Assembly: GCF_900090105.1 (NCBI RefSeq)
Contig: NZ_FMDM01000003.1
Location: 1-64,000, forward strand
Reading direction: 5' to 3'
Source: Micromonospora humi
GTDB lineage: Bacteria > Actinomycetota > Actinomycetes > Mycobacteriales > Micromonosporaceae
DNA: 64,000 nt
Shown: one piece after another, positions 1-10,644 of the stretch
Layout of the letters: every line of letters begins with the position of its first letter
Position numbering within the stretch: the stretch's first letter is position 1
Program-made: the position numbers and the translations under genes
The notes under the pieces: model-generated
Seen by the model: the letters and a program-made list of their open reading frames with translations, nothing else
Database searches by the model: none
What the model was told of the DNA's origin: nothing

Positions 1-113
1 GGCGGGTCGGGCGGGGGGCGGTCTGGCGTCGGCCGCGGCCGGGGTGCGGGCGGGTCGGGCGGGGGGCGGTCTGGCGTCGGCCGCGGCCGGGGTGCCGGCG
101 GGTCGGGCGGGGG
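1..113 (+). repeat. 48-bp tandem repeat inside eboC
   Basis: Two full copies of a 48-bp unit start at 1 and 49, with a partial third at 97. The unit is 16 codons, so the eboC frame stays open, and each full copy encodes a Gly/Arg/Ser-rich 16-residue peptide beginning GGSGGGRSGVGR. The first two copies differ only at the last base of the unit. It lies just upstream of a membrane-like segment and may extend a loop. The left boundary is not visible. Confidence 0.9.
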
Positions 114-582
114 CGTCGGACCGGCGTTGCTGCGGGCGTTGCCGGCCGCGCTGACCGTCGCCGCGCACACCTGGACCGTCACCGCGCTGTCCCGCCGCGA
201 GGTGACCGGCGCGACCGACCGCCGGATGCCCGCCTTCACGCTCGCCGGCACCGCGCTGATCGCGCTCGCCGCCCCGGGCCGGCCGACCGTGTTAAGCGGG
301 GCCCCCTCCTCTACCGAATGCGTTAAGAAGGGGCCCTTCCTTCGCCTCGTGCCGGGGGCGTTGGCGGCGGGGTACATGGTTCGGTACGGGCGGGCGCAGG
401 CCCGGGTGCTCGCCGACCCGTCGCCGGCCCGGGTGCGGGCGGCGGTCGGCGCCGGCATCACCGGGCTGCCCGCGTTGCAGGGCGCGCTGACCGCCCGCGC
501 CGGCGCCGGGCTGCTCGGCCTCGCGGTGGCCGGCGCCGCCCCGCTCGGCCGACGCCTGGCCCGGCTGGTCTCGCCGACATGA
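1..582 (+). CDS. eboC: EboC-like UbiA family prenyltransferase, 5'-truncated by the window edge
   Basis: This is the C-terminal part of a UbiA-type membrane prenyltransferase, open in frame from base 1 and ending in TGA at 580-582. After the glycine-rich repeat comes a typical UbiA C-terminal pattern: LLRALPAALTVAAHTWTVTA, then two further hydrophobic stretches and a basic tail. Its place upstream of EboA, EboB, EboE and EboF-like genes supports EboC, whose role in ebo clusters is thought to be membrane-associated precursor processing or traffic. Two oddities: the tandem repeat at 1-113 and a dispersed genomic element at 291-342 that is translated in frame (PTVLSGAPSSTECVKKGPFL) within or beside a transmembrane segment. 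The enzyme may therefore be impaired. The stop overlaps the next ATG (ATGA). The assignment as UbiA is moderate because the catalytic Asp-rich motifs would lie left of the window. Confidence 0.65.
   Translation, partial: GGSGGGRSGVGRGRGAGGSGGGRSGVGRGRGAGGSGGGVGPALLRALPAALTVAAHTWTVTALSRREVTGATDRRMPAFTLAGTALIALAAPGRPTVLSGAPSSTECVKKGPFLRLVPGALAAGYMVRYGRAQARVLADPSPARVRAAVGAGITGLPALQGALTARAGAGLLGLAVAGAAPLGRRLARLVSPT
291..342 (-). repeat. Dispersed GGGGCCC/TTAAC element, copy 1
   Basis: Read on the minus strand this is an arm AAGGAAGGGCCCCTTCTTAAC, a 13-nt core GCATTCGGTAGAG, then a second arm with GGGGCCCC and GCTTAAC. The same architecture occurs at 53260-53311 and 57649-57731. Here it sits inside the eboC reading frame, keeping it open. 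I recall similar elements scattered through Micromonospora genomes; no transposase is associated. Confidence 0.85.
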
Positions 583-1469
583 CCACCGTGACGCCGGCCG
601 CCGCGCCCCGCCGGCCCGCGACCGCGCCGGGCCGGCTGCGATTCGGGTACGGCACCAACGGCTTCGCCAACCACCGCCTCGACGACGCGCTCGGTGTGCT
701 CGCCGACCTCGGGTACGAGGGGGTGGCGCTCACCCTGGACCACGACCACCTGGACCCGTTCGCTCCCGGGCTGGCCCGCCGGGTGGACGCCGTGCGCCGC
801 CGGCTGAGCGCGCTGGGGCTGGCCGTGGTGGTCGAGACCGGGGCCCGCTACCTGCTCGACCCGTGGCACAAGCACGCCCCGACGCTGCTGCACGACGACC
901 CGTCCCGGCGCATCGAGTTCCTCCGCCGGGCCGTCCGGATCGGGGCGGACCTGGGCGCCGAGGCGGTCTCCTTCTGGGCCGGCGTCCGACCGCCCGAGGT
1001 GCCCCCGGCGGTCGCGTGGGAGCGCCTGGTCGCCGGGTGCGCCACGGTCTGCGCCGAGGCGGCCGGCGTGCCGCTGGGCTTCGAACCCGAGCCGGGCATG
1101 CTGGTCGAGGACATCGCCGGCTGGCGGCGGCTGCGCGACGCGCTCGGCGCGCCGCCCGGCTTCGGCATCACCCTCGACATCGGACACTGCCGCTGCCTGG
1201 AGCCGCTGCCGGTGCCCGACTGCGTGACGGCGGTCGCCGAGCACCTGGTCAACGTGCAGATCGACGACATGCGCCGGGGCGTGCACGAGCACCTGGAGTT
1301 CGGCGCCGGGGAGATCGACTTCCCGCCGGTGCTGGCCGCCCTCGCCGACGCCGGCTACCCCGGCCTGGTGGCGGTGGAGCTGCCCCGGCACGCGCACGCC
1401 GCCCCGACCGTCGCCGCCCGCTCGCTCGACTTCCTGCGCGCCGCCGCCCGCCGCGGCGAGAGGCGGTGA
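579..1469 (+). CDS. Sugar phosphate isomerase/epimerase-like TIM barrel protein of the Ebo cluster
   Basis: A 296-residue protein of the xylose-isomerase-like/AP-endonuclease-2 TIM-barrel superfamily. Candidate metal and active-site elements are GFEPEPG (167-173), LDIGH (199-203), QIDDM (227-231), HEHLEFGAGEIDF (236-248) and VELPRH (266-271), spaced as in sugar isomerases and epimerases that use a divalent metal. No signal peptide is seen, so it should be cytoplasmic. The ATG overlaps the eboC stop (ATGA), indicating translational coupling. The first ~18 residues (Ala/Pro-rich) precede the barrel, so an internal start is possible but none is better placed. It shares the FEPEPG motif with EboE downstream, suggesting related substrates. 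Substrate unknown. Confidence 0.8.
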   Translation: MTTVTPAAAPRRPATAPGRLRFGYGTNGFANHRLDDALGVLADLGYEGVALTLDHDHLDPFAPGLARRVDAVRRRLSALGLAVVVETGARYLLDPWHKHAPTLLHDDPSRRIEFLRRAVRIGADLGAEAVSFWAGVRPPEVPPAVAWERLVAGCATVCAEAAGVPLGFEPEPGMLVEDIAGWRRLRDALGAPPGFGITLDIGHCRCLEPLPVPDCVTAVAEHLVNVQIDDMRRGVHEHLEFGAGEIDFPPVLAALADAGYPGLVAVELPRHAHAAPTVAARSLDFLRAAARRGERR

Positions 1470-1504
1470 CCGACCACCTTCCACCACCGGCAGAGGGAGA
1501 CGGC

Positions 1505-2107
1505 ATGACACCCGACCGACTGCGCGCCGCGCTGCGGGGCGTACCCGATCCGCAGTGGCTGGACGCGGCACTGCGCCGCGTCGCGACCGAACCCGCGGCG
1601 ATCCCGCGCTACTTCGCCGCCGCCGCCCGGCGGTGCGGACGCGGTCCGGTGCCCGACCCGCCCGGCTGGACCGTCGACGAGGCCGCCCGGGCGCTGCTGC
1701 TCACCGCGCTGCCCGGCGGTCACGCCACGGTCGCCGAGACGCTCTACCGGGAGGGCGACGCCGCGGAGAAGCGGGCCGTGCTGCGGGCCCTGCCGCTGCT
1801 GCCGATCGGGGCGGAGTGCGTGCCGCTGCTGCACGACGCGATCCGCACCAACGACACCCGGCTGGTCGCCGCCGCGCTCGGCCCCTACGCCCGGCACCTG
1901 GAGCAGCCGGCCTGGCGGCAGGCGGTGCTGAAGTGCGTCTTCGCCGGTGTGCCGCTGGCCGTGGTGGACGGCCTGCCCGACCGGGCCGACGGCGAGCTGG
2001 CGCAGATGCTCGCCGCGTACGCCGCCGAGCGGCACGCCGCCGGACGGGCCATGCCGGCCGACGCCACCGACCTGCTCGACCGGCTCACCACCACCACGGA
2101 GGCGTGA
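1505..2107 (+). CDS. eboA: EboA domain-containing protein
   Basis: A 200-residue, Ala/Leu/Arg-rich, predominantly helical protein without signal peptide or membrane segment. The pattern LLTALPGGHATVAETLYREG followed by AEKRAVLRALPLLPIG and LLHDAIRTND resembles HEAT/TPR-like EboA proteins, a family of unknown biochemical role that marks ebo clusters. The ATG is preceded by GGCAGAGGGAGA, a good ribosome-binding site, and the stop is one base before the eboB ATG. The assignment rests on recognised motifs plus neighbours. In Nostoc the ebo genes are needed for export of a scytonemin precursor to the periplasm; that role is established there but not here. Confidence 0.8.
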   Translation: MTPDRLRAALRGVPDPQWLDAALRRVATEPAAIPRYFAAAARRCGRGPVPDPPGWTVDEAARALLLTALPGGHATVAETLYREGDAAEKRAVLRALPLLPIGAECVPLLHDAIRTNDTRLVAAALGPYARHLEQPAWRQAVLKCVFAGVPLAVVDGLPDRADGELAQMLAAYAAERHAAGRAMPADATDLLDRLTTTTEA

Positions 2108-2108
2108 C

Positions 2109-2960
2109 ATGCGCATCTTCGACCCGCACATCCACATGACGTCCCGGACCACCGACGACTACGAGCGGATGGCCGCCGCCGGGGTGCGGGCGGTGGTCGA
2201 GCCGGCGTTCTGGCTGGGCCAGCCGCGTACCGGCGTGCAGAGCTTCGTCGACTACTTCGACTCGCTGATCGGCTGGGAGCCGTTCCGGGCCGGCCAGTTC
2301 GGCGTCCGGCACCACGCCACCGTGGCGCTGAACCCGAAGGAGGCCAACGACCCGCGCTGCCGCCCGGTGCTCGACGTGCTGCCCCGCTATCTGGACAAGG
2401 ACGGCGTGGTGGCGGTCGGCGAGATCGGCTACGACGCGATGACGCCGGCCGAGGACGCCGCGCTGGCCGGGCAGCTCGCCCTGGCCGTCGCGCACGACCT
2501 GCCGGCCCTGGTGCACACCCCGCACCGGGACAAGGCGCGCGGCGTCGAACGCACCCTGGCGGTGGTCGCCGAGTCGGGCATCGCGCCCGGGCGGGTGCTG
2601 ATCGACCACCTCAACGAGGTGACCGTGGACCTGGTCCGGGACACCGGCTGCTGGCTCGGCTTCTCGATCTATCCGGAGACCAAGATGTCGCCGCCGCGGA
2701 TGGTCGAGCTGCTGAAGGCGTACGGGACGGAGCGGATGCTGGTCAACTCGGCCGCCGACTGGGGGCGCTCCGACCCGCTGCTCACCCGGGCCACCGGGGA
2801 GGCGATGCTGGACGCCGGGTTCGACGCCGACGACGTGGACCGGGTGCTGTGGCGCAACCCGGTGGAGTTCTACGGCCAGTCCGGCCGGCTCGACCTGACC
2901 GACCTGGAGGACCCGGCCGCCACCTTCGCCGGCAACTCGATCCTGCGGGGAGGCGCGTGA
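2109..2960 (+). CDS. eboB: TatD-family metal-dependent hydrolase EboB
   Basis: A 283-residue amidohydrolase-fold protein. The N-terminal DPHIH (5-9) is the first metal site; GEIGYD (104-109), HTPH (136-139), IDH (165-167) and SAADWG (214-219) follow in TatD order. TatD proteins are Mg/Zn-dependent hydrolases, some acting on DNA, but EboB members form a distinct branch with an unknown, probably small-molecule, substrate. The gene starts one base after the eboA stop and its TGA overlaps the eboE ATG, so it belongs to the same operon. No export signal is visible. Confidence 0.87.
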   Translation: MRIFDPHIHMTSRTTDDYERMAAAGVRAVVEPAFWLGQPRTGVQSFVDYFDSLIGWEPFRAGQFGVRHHATVALNPKEANDPRCRPVLDVLPRYLDKDGVVAVGEIGYDAMTPAEDAALAGQLALAVAHDLPALVHTPHRDKARGVERTLAVVAESGIAPGRVLIDHLNEVTVDLVRDTGCWLGFSIYPETKMSPPRMVELLKAYGTERMLVNSAADWGRSDPLLTRATGEAMLDAGFDADDVDRVLWRNPVEFYGQSGRLDLTDLEDPAATFAGNSILRGGA

Positions 2961-4147
2961 TGCGGCTGCGCCACGCCGACGGCACCACCGTCCACCTCGG
3001 CTACTGCACCAACGTCCACCCGGCGGAGGACCTGCCGGGCATCCTCGCCCAACTCGACACCTACGCGGTGGCGGTCCGCCGGCGACTCGACACCGACCTG
3101 CTCGGGCTGGGGCTGTGGCTGGCCGCACCGGTGGCCGCCGCGCTCGCCGCCGACCCGGCGGCCCGCCGCCGGCTGCGCCACGAGCTGACCGTACGCGGGC
3201 TGGAGGTGGTCACGCTCAACGGCTTCCCGTACGCGGCGTTCCAGGCGCCGGTGGTCAAGGGCGCCGTCTACCGGCCGGACTGGACCACGCCGGAGCGCCT
3301 CGCGTACACAGTGGACCTGGCCCGCGTGCTCGCCGACCTGCTGCCCGACGACGCGGCCCGGGGTTCGATCTCGACGCTGCCGCTGGCCTGGCGCACGCCG
3401 TGGGACCCGGCGCGGGCCGACGTGGCCCGCCGCCGGCTCGACGCGTTGACCGCCGGGCTGGCCGCCGTCCGACGCGACACCGGCCGGACGGTCCGGGTGG
3501 GCTTCGAGCCGGAGCCCGGCTGCCTGGTCGAGTCGACCGGGCAGGCCGCCGCGACGCTGTCCGGCGTGGACCCGGAGTGGCTCGGGATCTGCCTGGACCT
3601 GGCGCACCTGGCGTGCGCCTGGGAGGAGCCGGCCGACGCGCTGGCCCGGCTGCGCGACGCCGGGCTGCCGGTGGTCAAGGTGCAGGTCTCGGCCGCCGTC
3701 GAGGCGCCCGACCCGGCCGGCGCGACCGGCGCGCTGCGCCGCTTCGTCGAGCCGAGGTTCCTGCACCAGACCCGGGCGGCGGGCTGCGCCGGCGCGGTCG
3801 ACCCGGCCGACCCGGCGTGGGCGGCCGACGACCTGGACGCGGCGCTGGACGCGCGGCTGCCCGGGGCCTGGCGGGTGCACTACCACGTGCCGTTGCACGC
3901 GCCACCCGAGGAACCGTTGCGCTCGACCGTGCCGGTGCTGCGGGCCGCCCTCGCCGCGTTGTTCGCCGGACCGGCCGCCGGCTGCGACCACCTCGACGTG
4001 GAGACGTACACCTGGGGGGTGCTGCCGCAGGCGCGGCGGCCGCGCGGCGACGCGGAGCTGGCCGCCGGCATCGCCGCCGAACTGGCCTTCGCCCGCGACG
4101 AACTGGCCGCGCTCGGCGTGGCCGGCGGGGTGGGGGTGCCCTCATGA
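2960..4147 (+). CDS. eboE: Metabolite traffic protein EboE, sugar-isomerase-like TIM barrel
   Basis: A 395-residue cytoplasmic TIM-barrel protein matching EboE in length and motifs: CTNVHP (16-21) near the N terminus, TLNGFPYAAFQ (85-95), GFEPEPG (181-187), CLDLAHLACAWE (211-222) and HLDVETYTWG near the C terminus. The ATG at 2960 overlaps the eboB stop (TGATG); a GTG three bases upstream is in frame and cannot be excluded. The 3' end overlaps the next ATG by four bases. EboE proteins are linked to precursor traffic in ebo clusters but their reaction is not defined. The motifs overlap those of the isomerase at 579-1469, so the two probably arose from a common ancestor. Confidence 0.9.
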   Translation: MRLRHADGTTVHLGYCTNVHPAEDLPGILAQLDTYAVAVRRRLDTDLLGLGLWLAAPVAAALAADPAARRRLRHELTVRGLEVVTLNGFPYAAFQAPVVKGAVYRPDWTTPERLAYTVDLARVLADLLPDDAARGSISTLPLAWRTPWDPARADVARRRLDALTAGLAAVRRDTGRTVRVGFEPEPGCLVESTGQAAATLSGVDPEWLGICLDLAHLACAWEEPADALARLRDAGLPVVKVQVSAAVEAPDPAGATGALRRFVEPRFLHQTRAAGCAGAVDPADPAWAADDLDAALDARLPGAWRVHYHVPLHAPPEEPLRSTVPVLRAALAALFAGPAAGCDHLDVETYTWGVLPQARRPRGDAELAAGIAAELAFARDELAALGVAGGVGVPS

Positions 4148-5547
4148 GCCGGCGGCTGGTGGTGCTGGACGTGGTGGGGCTGACGCCGCGGCTGCTGGCG
4201 CACATGCCGCGGCTGCGCGCGGTGGCCGAGGCCGGTTTCGCCGCCGAGCTGGGCACCGTGCTGCCGGCGGTGACCTGCTCGGCGCAGGCCACCTTCCTCA
4301 CCGGCGAGCCGCCCGCCGGGCACGGCGTGGTGGGCAACGGCTGGTACTTCCGGGACCTCGGCGAGGTGCTGCTCTGGCGGCAGCACCACGCGCTGGTCGG
4401 CGGCGAGAAGGTGTGGCAGGCGGCCCGCCGGGTCGAGCCGGGCTACCGGGTGGCGAACGTCTGCTGGTGGTACGCGATGGGCGCGGACGTCGACTGGACG
4501 GTCACGCCGCGCCCGGTCTACCACGCGGACGGGCGCAAGGAGCCGGACTGCTGGACCGACCCGCCGGAGCTGCACGACACGCTCACCGACGCGCTCGGCA
4601 CGTTTCCGCTGTTCAGCTACTGGGGGCCGGGCGCGGGGCTGCCGTCCTCGGCGTGGATCAGCCGGGCCGCGCAGCGGATCCTCGCCGACCACGCCCCGGA
4701 CCTGACCCTGGTCTACCTGCCGCACCTCGACTACGACCTGCAACGCTTCGGCCCGTCCGCGCCGCGGGCCGCCGCCGCGGCGGCGGAGCTGGACGCGGTG
4801 CTCGGGCCGTTGCTGGACGCGGCGCGCGAGCGCGACGCCACGGTGGTGGCGCTGTCGGAGTACGGCATCACCGACGTGTCCCGCCCGGTGGACGTCAACC
4901 GGATGCTGCGCGCCGAGGGGCTGCTGCGGGTGCACACCCAGGCCGGAATGGAATACCTGGAGCCGTGGACGTCGCGGGCCTTCGCGGTGGCCGACCACCA
5001 GGTCGCGCACGTCTACGTGCGGGACCCGGCCGACGTGCCGGCGGTGGCGAAGCTCTGCGCCGCGCTACCGGGCGTGGCCGAGGTGCTGGACGCGACCGGG
5101 CAGGCCGGCTACGGGCTGGACCATGCCCGCTCCGGCGAGTTGGTGCTGGTGGCCGCGCCGGACGCCTGGTTCACCTACTACTACTGGCTCGACGACGCGC
5201 GGGCGCCCGACTTCGCCCGGCTGGTCGAGATCCATCGCAAGCCCGGCTACGACCCGGCCGAGCTGTTCTTCGACCCGGCCGCGCCGGGCGCGGCGAAGCG
5301 CCGGGCGGCGGTGGCGCTGGCCCGCAAGAAGCTCGGGATGCGCTACCTGATGAGCGTGGTGGGGCTGGACGCGGGCGCGCGGGCGGTCCGCGGCTCGCAC
5401 GGGCGGCTGCCGGCCGACCCGGCGGACGGTCCGGTGCTGCTCTGTTCCGACCCGACGGCGGCCCGGGAGCGGGTCGCGGCGACCGAGGTGAAGGCGTTGC
5501 TACTCCACCTCGCCGGGCTAACTTTTGTCGATCTGCGTCAAAAGTAG
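4144..5547 (+). CDS. eboF: EboF-like alkaline phosphatase superfamily (nucleotide pyrophosphatase-like) protein
   Basis: A 467-residue protein of the alkaline phosphatase/phosphodiesterase superfamily. Asp9 in VVLDVVG and Thr44 in LPAVTCSAQATFLTG fit the first metal ligand and the nucleophile; GHGVVGNGW (59-67) and YLPHLDYDLQRFGP (191-204) follow. The usual late metal motif DHG is replaced by SEYG (238-241), which I believe is typical of this branch and could change metal content. No signal peptide is seen, unlike many phosphodiesterases. The ATG overlaps the eboE stop. Its last codons lie inside a small inverted repeat (5521-5545). It closes the cluster; the next gene has its own leader and ribosome-binding site. 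Confidence 0.8.
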   Translation: MSRRLVVLDVVGLTPRLLAHMPRLRAVAEAGFAAELGTVLPAVTCSAQATFLTGEPPAGHGVVGNGWYFRDLGEVLLWRQHHALVGGEKVWQAARRVEPGYRVANVCWWYAMGADVDWTVTPRPVYHADGRKEPDCWTDPPELHDTLTDALGTFPLFSYWGPGAGLPSSAWISRAAQRILADHAPDLTLVYLPHLDYDLQRFGPSAPRAAAAAAELDAVLGPLLDAARERDATVVALSEYGITDVSRPVDVNRMLRAEGLLRVHTQAGMEYLEPWTSRAFAVADHQVAHVYVRDPADVPAVAKLCAALPGVAEVLDATGQAGYGLDHARSGELVLVAAPDAWFTYYYWLDDARAPDFARLVEIHRKPGYDPAELFFDPAAPGAAKRRAAVALARKKLGMRYLMSVVGLDAGARAVRGSHGRLPADPADGPVLLCSDPTAARERVAATEVKALLLHLAGLTFVDLRQK

Positions 5548-5683: not shown

Positions 5684-8521
5684 ATGTCCAGCCACCCCCA
5701 CCACCCACCCGCCCGACGACGACTGGCCGCCGGCGCGGCGCTGCTGCTCGCCGCCACCGCCGGCACGGTCACCCTGGCCACGACGCCCGTCCCGGCGTCC
5801 GCCCACCCCATCACGGCGAGCGACTTCCAGCAGGTCGAGCTGGCCCGCGGCGTCGCCGAGACCGGCGAACCGATGTCGCTCGCCGTGCTGCCCGACCGCT
5901 CGGTCCTGCACACCGCCCGCAACGGCACGCTGCGCCGCACCGACGCGGCCGGCGCCACCACGGTCGTCGGCACGCTGCCGGTCTACACCCACGACGAGGA
6001 GGGGTTGCAGGGCGTCGGCGTCGACCCCGGCTTCACCACCAACCGGCACATCTATCTCTACTACGCGCCGCCGCTCTCCACCCCGGCCGGGGACGCGCCG
6101 GCCACCGGCACCGACTTCTCCGCCTGGCAGGGCGTCAACCGGCTCTCCCGGTTCACGCTCAACGCCGACTTCACGCTCAACCAGTCCAGCAAGGTCGACG
6201 TGCTCGACGTGCCGGCCGACCGGGGGCTGTGCTGCCACGTCGGCGGCGACATCGACTTCGACGCCGCCGGCAACCTCTACCTCTCCACCGGCGACGACAC
6301 CAACCCGTTCGACTCCGCCGGCTACGCCCCGATCGACGAGCGCACCAACCGCAACCCCGGATACGACGCGCAGCGCAGCGCCGGCAACACCAACGACCTG
6401 CGCGGCAAGATCCTGCGGATCAAGGTGAACGCCAACGGCACCTACTCGATCCCCAGCGGCAACCTGTTCGCGCCCGGCACCGCGAAGACCCGCCCCGAGA
6501 TCTACGCGATGGGCTTCCGCAACCCGTTCCGGATGAGCGTCGACAAGGCCACCGGCGTCGTCTACGTCGGCGACTACGGGCCGGACGCCGGCACCACCTC
6601 GGCGCGCGGCCCGTCCGGGCAGGTCGAGTTCGACCGGGTCACCGGGCCGGGAAACTACGGCTGGCCGTACTGCACCGGCACCAACACCGCCACCGAGACG
6701 TACGCCGAGTGGGACTTCGCCACCGGCACCGCCGGCGCGAAGTTCAACTGCACCGGTGGACCGACCAACAACTCGTTCCGCAACACCGGCCTGACCACGC
6801 TGCCGGCCGCCAAGCCGGCCTGGATCCGCTACGCCGGCGACGCGGGCAGCCCGCCCGAGTTCGGCGGCGGCTCCGAGTCGCCGATGGGCGGCCCGGTCTA
6901 CCGATACGACGCGGCCAACCCGTCCACCACCAAGTTCCCGCAGACCTTCGACGGGCAGTTCTTCGCCACCGAGTTCGGGCGCGGCTGGATCAAGCCGATC
7001 CACGTCAACGCGGACGGCTCACCCGGCACCATCGACGCGTTCCCGTGGACCGGCAAGCAGGTGATGGACTCCGCGTTCGGCCCGGACGGCGCCTACTACG
7101 TACTCGACTACGGCACCGGCTACTTCAACGGCGACGCCAACTCGGCGCTCTACCGCTTCGACTACCTGGGCGGCGGCAACCGCGCCCCGGTGGCCCGAGC
7201 CGCCGCCGACAAGACCTCCGGCGTCGCGCCGCTGACCGTGGCGTTCTCCTCGGCCGGCTCGTCCGACCCGGAGAGCGGCGCGCTCACCTACGCCTGGGCG
7301 TTCGGCGACGGCGGCACCTCCACCGCCGCCAACCCGTCGCACACCTACACCGCCGACGGCCGCTACACCGCCACGCTGACCGTCCGCGACCCGCAGGGCG
7401 CCACCGGCACCGCGAGCGTGACGATCACCGTCGGCAACACCGCGCCGACAGTGGTCATCGAGACGCCCGGCAACGGCAAGCTCTTCTCCTTCGGCGACAC
7501 GGTCCCGTTCCGGATCACCGTCACCGACCCGGAGGACGCCACCATCGACTGCACCAAGGTCAAGATGACCTACGTGCTCGGCCACGACCAGCACGGCCAC
7601 CAGATCACCTCGGCGACCGGCTGCACCGGCACGATCGCCATCCCCGTGGACGGCGAGCACGACGACGCGGCGAACATCTTCGCCATCTTCGACGCCGAGT
7701 ACACCGACTCCGGCGGCCTCACCACCCACACCCAGCACACGCTCCAGCCCCGGCACCGGCAGGCCGAGCACTTCAAGACCTCGTCCGGGATCAACACGTT
7801 CGACAAGGGCACCGCCGAGGGTGGCAAGACCGTCGGCGACATCAACAACGGCGACTGGATCGCGTTCCAGCCCTACCTGCTCGCCGACGCCGCCGGGTTC
7901 AGCGCCCGGGTCTCCTCGGCCGGCGCGGGCGGCACGCTCCAGGTGCGGGCCGGCTCGGCCACCGGCACCGTGCTCGGCTCGGCCACCGTCCCGGTCACCG
8001 GCGCCTGGGACTCGTTCACCACGGTCACCGGCACCATCACCAACCCGCCGGCCGGCACCACCACGCTCTACCTGACGTTCGCCGGCGGCACCGGGGCGCT
8101 CTACGACCTGGACGCGTTCACGTTCACCACCTCGGCCGTCCGGACCGGGCCGGTGAAGGGACTGGCCGGCAAGTGCCTCGACGTACGCAACGCGGCGACC
8201 GCCGACGGCACCCAGATCCAGCTCTACACCTGCAACGGCACCGCCGCGCAGACCTGGACCGTGACGCCCAACTCGACGGTCAAGGCGTACGGCAAGTGCC
8301 TCGACGTCTCCGGCGGCGCGAGCGCGGACGGCACCAAGATCCAGCTCTACACGTGCAACGGCACCGGCGCGCAGACCTGGTCGGCGCAGGCCGACGGCAC
8401 GGTGCGCAACCCGCAGTCCGGCAAGTGCCTGGACGTGTCCGGCAACAACTCGGCCGACAGCACGCCGGTGCACCTGTGGACCTGCACGGCCGCGGCCAAC
8501 CAGAAGTGGACGCTGCCGTGA
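5684..8521 (+). CDS. Secreted PQQ-type sugar dehydrogenase with PKD, CBM6 and ricin-type lectin domains
   Basis: A 945-residue exported protein. The signal peptide (1-40) has an RRR start, a hydrophobic core and cleaves after PASA. Residues ~45-495 form a glucose/sorbosone dehydrogenase-type beta-propeller (GEPMSLAVLPDR, DEEGLQGVGVDPGF, CCHVGGDIDF, YGWPYCTG). A PKD domain follows (~499-585, WAFGDGGTSTAANPSHTY), then a beta-sandwich, a CBM6-like carbohydrate-binding domain (~693-815, QAEHFKTSSG, GDWIAF) and a ricin-type beta-trefoil (~823-945) with three Q-x-W repeats. I infer oxidation of surface or polysaccharide sugars outside the cell; cofactor and substrate are not shown. The ATG at 5684 has AGGAAGGA upstream, although the frame is open further left. 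Only 20 bases separate it from the next gene, which shares the lectin module. Confidence 0.88.
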   Translation: MSSHPHHPPARRRLAAGAALLLAATAGTVTLATTPVPASAHPITASDFQQVELARGVAETGEPMSLAVLPDRSVLHTARNGTLRRTDAAGATTVVGTLPVYTHDEEGLQGVGVDPGFTTNRHIYLYYAPPLSTPAGDAPATGTDFSAWQGVNRLSRFTLNADFTLNQSSKVDVLDVPADRGLCCHVGGDIDFDAAGNLYLSTGDDTNPFDSAGYAPIDERTNRNPGYDAQRSAGNTNDLRGKILRIKVNANGTYSIPSGNLFAPGTAKTRPEIYAMGFRNPFRMSVDKATGVVYVGDYGPDAGTTSARGPSGQVEFDRVTGPGNYGWPYCTGTNTATETYAEWDFATGTAGAKFNCTGGPTNNSFRNTGLTTLPAAKPAWIRYAGDAGSPPEFGGGSESPMGGPVYRYDAANPSTTKFPQTFDGQFFATEFGRGWIKPIHVNADGSPGTIDAFPWTGKQVMDSAFGPDGAYYVLDYGTGYFNGDANSALYRFDYLGGGNRAPVARAAADKTSGVAPLTVAFSSAGSSDPESGALTYAWAFGDGGTSTAANPSHTYTADGRYTATLTVRDPQGATGTASVTITVGNTAPTVVIETPGNGKLFSFGDTVPFRITVTDPEDATIDCTKVKMTYVLGHDQHGHQITSATGCTGTIAIPVDGEHDDAANIFAIFDAEYTDSGGLTTHTQHTLQPRHRQAEHFKTSSGINTFDKGTAEGGKTVGDINNGDWIAFQPYLLADAAGFSARVSSAGAGGTLQVRAGSATGTVLGSATVPVTGAWDSFTTVTGTITNPPAGTTTLYLTFAGGTGALYDLDAFTFTTSAVRTGPVKGLAGKCLDVRNAATADGTQIQLYTCNGTAAQTWTVTPNSTVKAYGKCLDVSGGASADGTKIQLYTCNGTGAQTWSAQADGTVRNPQSGKCLDVSGNNSADSTPVHLWTCTAAANQKWTLP

Positions 8522-8541
8522 GGTGGGAAGGGAGAACGACG

Positions 8542-10644
8542 ATGAGACTCCGCCGTATCGCGCTGGTGGCGATGACCGTCGTGGCCGCCACCAGCGCCGC
8601 CACCCCGGCGAGCGCCGCCGACGCCCCCTACGACGTGCTGGTCTTCTCCAAGACCGCGGGCTTCCGGCACGACTCCATCGCGGTCGGCACGCAGACCGTC
8701 CGCGACCTGGGCGCGGCGAACAACTTCACGGTCACCGCGACCGAGGACGCCACCCAGTTCACCACCGCCAACCTGTCCCGCTTCGAGGCGGTGATCTTCC
8801 TCAACACCACCGGCGACGTGCTCAACGCGACCCAGCAGGCCGCGTTCGAGAGCTACATCGGCGCCGGCGGCGGATACGTCGGCGTGCACTCCGCCGCCGA
8901 CACCGAGTACGACTGGCCGTTCTACGGCAACCTGGTCGGCGCCTGGTTCGCGTCCCACCCGGCGATCCAGCCGGCCACCGTCAGGGTGGAGGACCGGGCG
9001 CACGCCGCCACCGCGCACCTGCCGCAACGCTGGAACCGCACCGACGAGTGGTACGACTACCGCACCAACGCCCGCTCCACCGCGCACGTGCTGGCCAGCC
9101 TCGACGAGTCCACCTACAGCGGGGGTTCGATGGGCGGCGACCACCCGCACGCCTGGTGCAAGTCCGTCAGCGGCGGCCGGTCCTTCTACACCGGCGGCGG
9201 ACACACCCAGGCGTCGTACGCCGAGCCCGCGTTCCGCGCCCACCTGCTCGGCGGCATCCGCTACGCCGCCGGGCGCACGAAGGCCGACTGCCGGCCGGAG
9301 ACCGGCTACACCGCGCTCTACGACGGCGGCACCACCGGCTGGTCGCAGGCCGGGCCGGGCAGCTTCACCAACTCGGACGCCACGCTCACCTCGGTCGGCG
9401 GCATGGGCCTCTACTGGTACAGCGCGAAGCAGTTCACCAACTACTCGCTCAAGCTGGACTGGCGGCTCGCCGGCGACGACAACTCCGGGGTGTTCGTCGG
9501 CTTCCCGCCGTCGAGCGACCCGAACTCGGCGGTGAACAACGGCTACGAGGTGCAGATCGACCCCACCGACTCGGCGGACAAGACCACCGGCGCGATCTAC
9601 GGGTTCAAGTCCGCCGACCTGGCGGCCCGGGACGCGGCGCTGAACCCGGCGGGGGAGTGGAACACCTACGAGATCCTGGTCGAGGGCGAACGACTCCAGG
9701 TCTTCCTCAACGGCGTCCGGATCAACGACTTCACCAACACCGACCCGGTCCGGTCGCTCGCCGGGCACGTCGGCATCCAGAACCACGGCACCGGCGACGA
9801 CGCCTCGTTCCGCAACATCCGGATCAAGGAACTGGGCGGCACCCCGCCCCCGCCCACCGGCAACACCACCGTGCAGGCCGAGTCGTTCAGCGCGGCCAGC
9901 GGCGTCAGCGCGTTCACCAAGGCCGGGGCCAACGGCGGACAGACCCTGGGGTACGTCGACCCGGGCGACTGGGCCGCGTACCAGGGCCTGGACCTGACCG
10001 GGGTGACGTCGCTGCGGGCCCGGGTGGTCTCGGGCGGGCCGGGCGGCACGATCCAGGTGCGCACCGGCTCACCCACCGGCCCGCTGCTCGGCCAGGTGGC
10101 GGTGCCGAACACCGGAAGCTGGACCACGTTCGCCGACGTCACCACCGCGCTGAGCGGGGTGCCGTCGGGGACGCAGACGGTCCACCTGACGTTCACCGGC
10201 AGCGGTTCCGGGCTGTTCGACGTCGACGACTTCACGCTGGTCCGGGGCGGTGGCGGCACCGGCGGCACCGGCCCGGTGAAGGGACTGGCCGGCAAGTGCC
10301 TCGACGTACGCAACGCGGCGACCGCCGACGGCACCCAGATCCAGCTCTACACCTGCAACTCGTTCACGGCGCAGACCTGGACGGTCACGCCGAACGGGCC
10401 GGTGAAGGCGCTGGGCAAGTGTCTCGACGTCAACGGCGGCGCCAACGCCGACGGCACGAAGATCCAGCTGTGGACGTGCAACGGCACCGGTGCGCAGACC
10501 TGGTCGGCGCAGGCCGACGGCACGGTGCGCAACCCGCAGTCGGGCAAGTGCCTGGACGTGTCCGGCAACAACTCGGCGGACGGCACGCCGGTGCACCTGT
10601 GGACCTGCACCGGCGCCGCCAACCAGCGCTGGACCCTGCCGTGA
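8542..10644 (+). CDS. Secreted ThuA/DUF1080 (3-keto-disaccharide hydrolase-like) protein with CBM6 and ricin-type lectin domains
   Basis: A 700-residue exported protein with a signal peptide (cleavage after ATPASA, ~25). Residues ~28-250 are a ThuA-like flavodoxin/GATase fold (VLVFSKTAGFRHDSI, GGGYVGVHSAADTEYDWPFY). Residues ~253-433 are a DUF1080/concanavalin-like domain (NYSLKLDWRLAGDDNSGVFV, NNGYEVQIDP); some members hydrolyse 3-keto-disaccharides. A CBM6-like domain (~445-565) and a ricin beta-trefoil (~577-700, three Q-x-W repeats) follow. A purine-rich GGGAAGGGAGA precedes the ATG. The pairing with the sugar dehydrogenase suggests oxidation to a keto sugar followed by cleavage (inference). 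Its lectin tail is almost identical in DNA to that of the upstream gene. Confidence 0.88.
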   Translation: MRLRRIALVAMTVVAATSAATPASAADAPYDVLVFSKTAGFRHDSIAVGTQTVRDLGAANNFTVTATEDATQFTTANLSRFEAVIFLNTTGDVLNATQQAAFESYIGAGGGYVGVHSAADTEYDWPFYGNLVGAWFASHPAIQPATVRVEDRAHAATAHLPQRWNRTDEWYDYRTNARSTAHVLASLDESTYSGGSMGGDHPHAWCKSVSGGRSFYTGGGHTQASYAEPAFRAHLLGGIRYAAGRTKADCRPETGYTALYDGGTTGWSQAGPGSFTNSDATLTSVGGMGLYWYSAKQFTNYSLKLDWRLAGDDNSGVFVGFPPSSDPNSAVNNGYEVQIDPTDSADKTTGAIYGFKSADLAARDAALNPAGEWNTYEILVEGERLQVFLNGVRINDFTNTDPVRSLAGHVGIQNHGTGDDASFRNIRIKELGGTPPPPTGNTTVQAESFSAASGVSAFTKAGANGGQTLGYVDPGDWAAYQGLDLTGVTSLRARVVSGGPGGTIQVRTGSPTGPLLGQVAVPNTGSWTTFADVTTALSGVPSGTQTVHLTFTGSGSGLFDVDDFTLVRGGGGTGGTGPVKGLAGKCLDVRNAATADGTQIQLYTCNSFTAQTWTVTPNGPVKALGKCLDVNGGANADGTKIQLWTCNGTGAQTWSAQADGTVRNPQSGKCLDVSGNNSADGTPVHLWTCTGAANQRWTLP

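Follow-up and report, generated by a model that had tools for sequence, protein, structure and literature searches.

The window analysed here is a stretch of 64,000 nucleotides from Micromonospora humi (assembly GCF_900090105.1, contig NZ_FMDM01000003.1, positions 1 to 64,000 of the forward strand), which opens with genes of the ebo operon. It forms the start of contig C32 (G000:C32:1) in a genome of 6.66 Mb and 37 contigs, and the best named relatives of its EboE belong to Micromonospora. The start of the contig falls inside ubiA, and the missing half of that gene, preceded by a gene for a homologue of myo-inositol-1-phosphate synthase (MIPS), lies at the end of contig C20. We describe a form of the ebo operon in which this MIPS and a xylose-isomerase-like protein (ISOM) take the place of EboD, a member of the sugar phosphate cyclase superfamily, and we consider what such an operon might produce. 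Six co-directional open reading frames make up its part in the window:

1..582, + strand: C-terminal half of ubiA, SCO3242-family prenyltransferase (NF045897)
579..1469, + strand: ISOM, xylose-isomerase-like TIM barrel, predicted sugar(-phosphate) epimerase/isomerase and partner of MIPS (Pfam AP_endonuc_2)
1505..2107, + strand: EboA, all-helical, possible scaffold (NF035938)
2109..2960, + strand: EboB, TatD-like metal-dependent hydrolase (Pfam TatD_DNase)
2960..4147, + strand: EboE, xylose-isomerase-like TIM barrel (NF035939)
4144..5547, + strand: EboF, type I phosphodiesterase/nucleotide pyrophosphatase family (Pfam Phosphodiest)

The first-pass annotation, which was made from the sequence alone, described these genes as joined by ATGA-type overlaps. 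Such overlaps are found at two of the five junctions, UbiA/ISOM and EboE/EboF, but not at the other three, which consist of a TGATG (EboB/EboE), a gap of 1 nt (EboA/EboB) and a gap of 35 nt (ISOM/EboA).

Identity of the Core Proteins

The presence of an Ebo cluster in an actinomycete, as first proposed, is borne out by the family models: EboA scores 163.7 bits against the domain model NF035938 (cut-off 50), and EboE 408.7 bits against NF035939 (cut-off 250). EboA lies below the full-length subfamily model NF035937, with 86.7 bits against a cut-off of 320. EboB matches Pfam TatD_DNase (38.3 bits, cut-off 27) as well as the TatD gene in each of nine annotated ebo loci, EboF matches Phosphodiest (PF01663; 209.6 bits, cut-off 23), and ISOM matches AP_endonuc_2 (126.4 bits, cut-off 31.1). 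The structure model of EboA is all-helical and confident (pLDDT 95.5). Foldseek returned nothing for it at E<=0.001, and its likeness to HEAT solenoids is weak (VIA-align best Z 10.3, rmsd 5.1, 185 aligned) and may lie within what helical repeats give through their common arrangement.

By fold, the model of ISOM (pLDDT 93.6) is most similar to MJ1311 (Z 31.8, rmsd 1.9, 256 aligned) and to the L-xylulose-5-phosphate 3-epimerase UlaE (Z 29.3, rmsd 2.2, 263 aligned), and seven residues, E169, E171, D200, H203, H236, H238 and E267, are invariant in 26 aligned sequences. ISOM and EboE have a GFEPEPG stretch in common, from which two related sugar- or cyclitol-phosphate steps had been deduced. The motif is a weak basis for that deduction, as the two proteins are no more than distantly similar (BLASTP best E 0.10) and so not near paralogues, but the cyclitol-phosphate chemistry itself is strengthened by the MIPS described below. 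A recent duplication of EboE as the source of ISOM was rejected on the same grounds; across bacterial ebo loci, the ISOM and EboE profiles cross-match at about 20–34 bits.

A MIPS Homologue in Place of EboD

The N-terminal half of ubiA is found at the end of C20 (G000:C20:148-591, - strand), where it covers positions 1–149 of NF045897 at 238.1 bits; the window half covers positions 143–287 at about 127.4–127.9 bits. The cut-off of this model, 260 bits, applies to the whole protein, and each half, scored separately, falls below it. The halves were compared with each other and not joined. An identical GC-rich tandem repeat of 48 bp, in frame within ubiA, occupies both contig ends (window 1–120; L012 1–150), and the break in the assembly is attributed to it; because both ends run into this repeat, the adjacency of C20 and C32 in the genome is one that we infer rather than read from continuous sequence.

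The gene upstream of ubiA encodes a MIPS homologue of 382 aa and shares a GTGA overlap with ubiA. It scores 164.1 bits against PF07994 (cut-off 25) and 100.9 bits against PF01658 (cut-off 27), and only 22 bits against the mycothiol INO1 model TIGR03450, whose cut-off is 638. A canonical mycothiol INO1 is encoded elsewhere in the genome, on C16, at 665.8 bits; housekeeping inositol synthesis was therefore rejected as the role of the ebo MIPS, which appears to be a dedicated copy. The first-pass annotation counted on EboD to the left of the window and on an EboD/EboC partner upstream. The UbiA partner is there, but MIPS occupies the place expected for EboD, and EboD directly upstream is rejected. 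No EboD was found in the genome, in which the sole PF01761 match above the cut-off is AroB (TIGR01357 323.6 bits, cut-off 305); a second, weak PF01761 match is glycerol-1-phosphate-dehydrogenase-like.

The closest solved structure to this MIPS is Archaeoglobus fulgidus Ino1 (1u1i, 245 bits). We take N255, K274, K278, K306 and K367 of that enzyme to be its catalytic residues; three of these five places carry alanine in the aligned entries 3qvw, 3qvx and 3qw2. All five residues are kept in 90/90 ebo-linked actinobacterial MIPS (from 84 surveyed loci, the present genome and five Streptomyces plasmids), in the MIPS of Gemmatirosa and in three haloarchaeal copies. A further MIPS paralogue of the same genome (G000:C17:193263-193577, L154) is close to the ebo type, at 548 bits, and the surrounding 19 kb contain no match to UbiA, ISOM or another ebo gene.

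Distribution in Actinomycetota

The NF035939 profile found EboE in 19 of 396 genomes sampled evenly across Actinomycetota. From 18 of these, our own being excluded, 19 stretches were taken, and together with 80 named loci they gave 99 loci, in which all open frames were searched with seeds from the window and C20. The named loci are not an even sample, since they are the best of 136 relatives, mostly Micromonosporaceae. Gene counts refer to the 86 of the 99 loci in which the sequence extends 5 kb or more upstream of EboE. UbiA, EboB and EboF are present in all 86, EboA in 85, ISOM in 84 and MIPS in 83, and an AroB/EboD-like gene occurs in a single locus. The order MIPS-UbiA-ISOM-EboA-B-E-F is the usual actinobacterial form and recurs in dozens of loci, so that the gene set is not a product of chance. 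The isomerase regarded as an extra member of the window cluster is thus real but not occasional: besides these 84 loci, it accompanies MIPS in Gemmatirosa, Hymenobacter and Roseomonas.

The three loci that lack MIPS differ in kind. L034 comes from a genome that carries the locus twice, the complete copy being L036; in L051, EboE is broken in two and lacks its middle part; and L037 has the arrangement EboD-EboB-EboE-UbiA-EboF, as in Deinococcus. Counted by genome, MIPS stands beside ebo in 17/19 (our own counted across the contig junction, and the upstream part of G318 included), the exceptions being G279 and G381. ISOM and EboA share one open frame in two loci (L049, L061); hybrid isomerase-EboA proteins of Actinobacteria are mentioned as 'data not shown' in section 3.4.4 of PMC5133447. 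The contig NZ_MAGP01000143 of M. chalcea carries the locus twice in opposite orientation with identical scores (L064, L065), which is either a duplication or an assembly artefact.

Plasmid Loci and Forms beyond Actinomycetota

A search of plasmid records with EboE gave 48 records (47 with a Bacteroidota query), 32 of them actinobacterial and 16 not. Ten of the latter were examined, one per species or plasmid; the remaining six are additional records from Ketogulonicigenium and Mycetohabitans. Nine of the ten contain a gene annotated as '3-dehydroquinate synthase' (EboD) and match neither MIPS nor ISOM. The tenth, from Gemmatirosa kalamazoonensis, has ISOM, MIPS, UbiA, EboF and EboB in one run with a divergent EboE, and no match to EboD. 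ISOM goes with MIPS, and there are therefore two cyclase modules, EboD or MIPS with ISOM, for one ebo core. Six of the 32 actinobacterial plasmid records were examined as well, and five hold the full MIPS-type set. The sixth, from Streptomyces (L145), has a lone eboE (7989–9167) inside a type II polyketide gene cluster.

The Gemmatirosa locus is chimeric. Its EboB groups with those of Deinococcus and L037, both EboD-type, with support of 100/100, and forcing it among the actinobacteria is rejected (approximately unbiased (AU) test, p 4e-68); in the best trees, its EboF and EboE likewise fall with the EboD type. This one locus offers modest evidence that a change of cyclase goes with a change of prenyltransferase, EboB at least being retained.

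Searching plasmid records with MIPS gave 45 records, and four haloarchaeal plasmids were examined, Halomarina PSR21 being left out. Three of them (L146, L147 and L149, from Halobaculum, Halocatena and Natronococcus) have MIPS, UbiA, an EboB relative (305–325 bits), an EboF relative (323–348 bits) and two ISOM-like proteins together, and no EboA, EboD or true EboE at the thresholds used. In the fourth (L148), MIPS lies among glycosyltransferases without any ebo match. MIPS is also accompanied by an ISOM-like protein (343 and 330 bits) in clusters with YcaO, PIG-L deacetylase and Gfo/Idh/MocA genes in Hymenobacter (L150, 7932–16633) and Roseomonas (L151, 7977–17155), where no UbiA or other ebo gene was found; the pairing of MIPS with ISOM is therefore not confined to ebo.

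The UbiA Prenyltransferase

The window frame at 1–582 had been read as UbiA/EboC. It is UbiA, but the C-terminal half only, and nearer to SCO3242_trans (NCBIfam NF045897, 127.9 bits) than to EboC (NF035940, 26.1 bits, cut-off 250); judged by this half, the protein is not the EboC equivalog and belongs to another lineage. The first Asp motif, NDxxDxxxD, and the YD...K stretch are kept in 90/90 aligned actinobacterial rows, and the two halves of our own protein keep them wherever each falls. Full-length relatives give weak matches to models of geranylgeranylglycerol-phosphate geranylgeranyltransferase. Within the window half, at 291–345, lies an in-frame palindromic interspersed element of ~50 bp, whose 30-bp pattern occurs at 120 places in the genome (<=3 mismatches) and whose reversed control occurs at 0; related copies are found at 7339 and 7370 of L064 (M. 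chalcea).

In the UbiA tree, ten EboD-type rows lie on one side of a branch with support of 89/67 (91% of 200 bootstrap trees), and Gemmatirosa, whose UbiA scores 169.4 bits for SCO3242 against 136.3 bits for EboC, joins the actinobacterial type to the exclusion of the haloarchaea (98/95). With the haloarchaea removed, Gemmatirosa attaches to the branch that separates the two types, and the topology test is uninformative there. The UbiA tree gives moderate support to the view that the UbiA lineage follows the type of cyclase, EboD or MIPS, and it is suggested that UbiA acts on the cyclitol.

Flanking Genes

Two further genes lie downstream of EboF in the window, and are associated with the operon without belonging to its core:

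5684..8521, + strand: glucose/sorbosone dehydrogenase (GSDH; Pfam GSDH 109.1 bits) with PKD, CBM6 and ricin-type domains
8542..10644, + strand: ThuA and 3-keto-disaccharide hydrolase protein (Pfam ThuA 267.3 bits, 3keto-disac_hyd 131.7 bits) with CBM6 and ricin-type domains

Such a pair accompanies the operon in many loci, though not in every one. In 46 of 100 loci, the window among them, the aligned stretch of the dehydrogenase lies in the same direction as EboF and no more than 1.5 kb downstream of it. In L036 and L039-L043 (one genus, probably Streptomyces), as well as in L104, L117, L121, L125 and L129, the pair is found at the opposite end of the operon. It is downstream of the MIPS-type operon in Micromonospora and upstream in other genera, and at the threshold used it is absent from many further loci, for example L033, L035, L114, L119, L122, L123, L127, L128, L130 and L131. 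The N-terminus of the window GSDH resembles a signal peptide; signal-peptide-like N-termini of the flanking proteins would be compatible with a step outside the cell. In our own genome, the aligned part of a Gfo/Idh/MocA gene ends 228 bp from that of MIPS. This gene was rejected as a core member, as the Streptomyces-type and Streptosporangiaceae loci contain no strong match to it. In two Streptomyces plasmids, a gene of the ScyD/ScyE family (NHL-repeat) lies directly upstream of MIPS (L142 2224–3426; L153 8566–9765) and a multicopper oxidase lies downstream of the ebo operon, a setting that recalls scytonemin.

What the MIPS-Type Operon May Produce

Ever since the ebo genes received their name in 2016, what they make has been a standing question, and the substrate of EboD has only been guessed. 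In the sampled MIPS-type loci, MIPS and ISOM replace EboD. We tentatively favour, at somewhat less than an even chance, the reading that this is a variant ebo operon with a dedicated MIPS homologue, whose product is a prenylated cyclitol lipid, probably for export. The reactions, substrates, order of steps and export role that we infer from the genes would be as follows. MIPS would cyclise glucose-6-phosphate, or a closely related hexose phosphate that ISOM makes or adjusts, and UbiA would add a prenyl chain to the resulting cyclitol phosphate at the membrane. EboE, EboB and EboF could then isomerise or trim the head group and its phosphate, with EboA as a possible helical scaffold. The product of MIPS retains its phosphate, and may therefore be a substrate for EboF. 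The prenylated cyclitol lipid might act as a carrier or cofactor that takes small molecules outside, as for the scytonemin monomer and the ebo genes in Nostoc.

This scheme agrees with earlier proposals. An isoprenoid-cyclitol product was proposed from EboD and EboC in section 3.7 of PMC5133447, where EboF is hard to place for the product of EboD, and ebo mutants of Nostoc retain the scytonemin monomer in the cytoplasm, for which a lipid carrier was suggested (PMC6282210); Nostoc is the only organism in which a need for ebo in export has been demonstrated. The replacement of EboD by an unrelated cyclase in the same operon is independent support for a cyclitol product. A wider claim is that ebo is lipid-carrier machinery of general use, centred on a prenylated cyclitol, with EboD and MIPS plus ISOM as interchangeable modules, each with its own UbiA lineage, and a MIPS form that reaches the haloarchaea; this we regard as doubtful at present. 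If it were true, an inositol-phosphate-type enzyme would name the head group of the ebo product in actinobacteria.

Several observations weigh against the prenylated cyclitol. For the MIPS form, the reactions, product and role are predicted from gene content. Ubi-297, a relative of EboC, prenylated quinoline acids in vitro (PMC9235831), and these are not cyclitols. The five catalytic residues of MIPS occur also in 5/6 non-ebo MIPS, of which the sixth is fragmentary as aligned, and for this reason they indicate a competent enzyme and tell nothing of its substrate. The ebo MIPS clade of the actinobacteria includes the C17 paralogue, which lacks ebo neighbours. The non-actinobacterial sample consists of ten plasmid loci, and in one of them, the EboD locus of Ketogulonicigenium, another annotated sugar phosphate isomerase stands beside EboB, though it has no match to ISOM. 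The case for module swapping comes from the single chimeric locus of Gemmatirosa, where the opposite placements of EboF (AU p 0.126) and EboE (p 0.355) are not rejected and MIPS falls with the pair from the YcaO clusters (80/87). The haloarchaeal UbiA scores slightly higher for EboC (177.9 bits) than for SCO3242 (170.0), and the long branch of Aureibacter makes its placement in the UbiA tree unsure.

Other explanations start from the same genes. MIPS might have another specificity, for a five-membered cyclitol phosphate or another inositol isomer, in which case the cyclitol lipid would not be based on myo-inositol. One member of its family is a synthase of five-membered cyclitol phosphates (6k96, 44.2 bits). 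The five catalytic residues do not tell such specificities apart, and ISOM, which in fold comes closest to sugar and sugar-phosphate 3-epimerases, might provide an unusual hexose phosphate; by far the best solved relative of MIPS, however, is the myo-inositol-1-phosphate synthase of A. fulgidus, and we consider this specificity unlikely. A different acceptor is also conceivable, with UbiA prenylating an aromatic compound, MIPS and ISOM making a separate sugar part, and the operon serving as a tailoring or export set for aromatic secondary metabolites. The preference of Ubi-297 for farnesylation of quinoline acids (PMC9235831) would fit, as would the lone eboE in the type II polyketide cluster of L145 and the aromatic prenyltransferase and multicopper oxidase beside the operon in L142. 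An acceptor common to both cyclase types would not explain why the UbiA lineage tracks the cyclase, however, and most surveyed loci, those of Micromonospora above all, adjoin sugar genes, which makes an aromatic acceptor rather unlikely.

Those sugar genes could themselves define the locus, if an importer, a Gfo/Idh/MocA protein, a ROK regulator, GSDH and ThuA/3-keto-disaccharide hydrolase fed ISOM and EboE in sugar or inositol utilisation. They flank the operon in most Micromonospora loci, and GSDH and ThuA do so in other genera as well. MIPS, however, belongs to a biosynthetic class of enzyme and UbiA is a prenyltransferase; GSDH, ThuA, the substrate protein of the importer and Gfo/Idh/MocA are absent, at the threshold used, in L114, L119, L127, L128, L130 and L142-L144, and the seven-gene core stays in Streptosporangiaceae-type and other loci without these flanks. 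A utilisation locus thus seems quite improbable. The prenylated cyclitol lipid would bring secondary-metabolism loci of actinobacteria, the export of scytonemin and the haloarchaeal plasmids under a single biochemical scheme, and since MIPS is a well-understood class of enzyme with an easily assayed product, the question of what ebo makes becomes directly testable in laboratory strains of Streptomyces.

Comparison with Known Systems

The ebo operon, isomerase-EboA fusions and the 'SCO3242 family' of NCBI are already known, and NCBI annotation already names pieces of the present operon ('SCO3242 family prenyltransferase', 'inositol-3-phosphate synthase', 'eboE'). Neither MIPS with ebo nor the exchange of EboD for it was found described in the literature searched, outside which lie most subscription journals and all of bioRxiv; the word 'inositol' is absent from the main texts of PMC5133447, PMC6282210 and PMC9235831, and searches on the YcaO/PIG-L/Gfo cluster and on Art22 found no paper.

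Like the canonical eboABCDEF of Bacteroidetes, Cyanobacteria and eustigmatophyte plastids (PMC5133447), the operon described here has EboA, EboB, EboE and EboF with a UbiA-family prenyltransferase in one operon; unlike it, it has no EboD, it includes MIPS and ISOM, and its UbiA is of another lineage. The three haloarchaeal loci share with it MIPS, UbiA, EboB and EboF-like and ISOM-like proteins, and likewise lack EboD, but differ in having two ISOM-like proteins and no match to EboA or EboE over the thresholds. The Hymenobacter and Roseomonas clusters resemble it in the company of MIPS and an ISOM-like protein, and differ in being without UbiA or other ebo genes. In the CDA region of Streptomyces coelicolor (PMC3610822), a putative transferase stands beside a myo-inositol phosphate synthase (SCO3242/SCO3243), and the comparison extends to this pair only. 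Close counterparts are also the loci with an NCBIfam 'SCO3242 family prenyltransferase' on the Streptomyces plasmids L142, L143, L144, L152 and L153: their flanks differ, and the ubiA of M. humi is set apart by its in-frame 48-bp repeat and palindromic element, but they carry the same seven genes in the same order.

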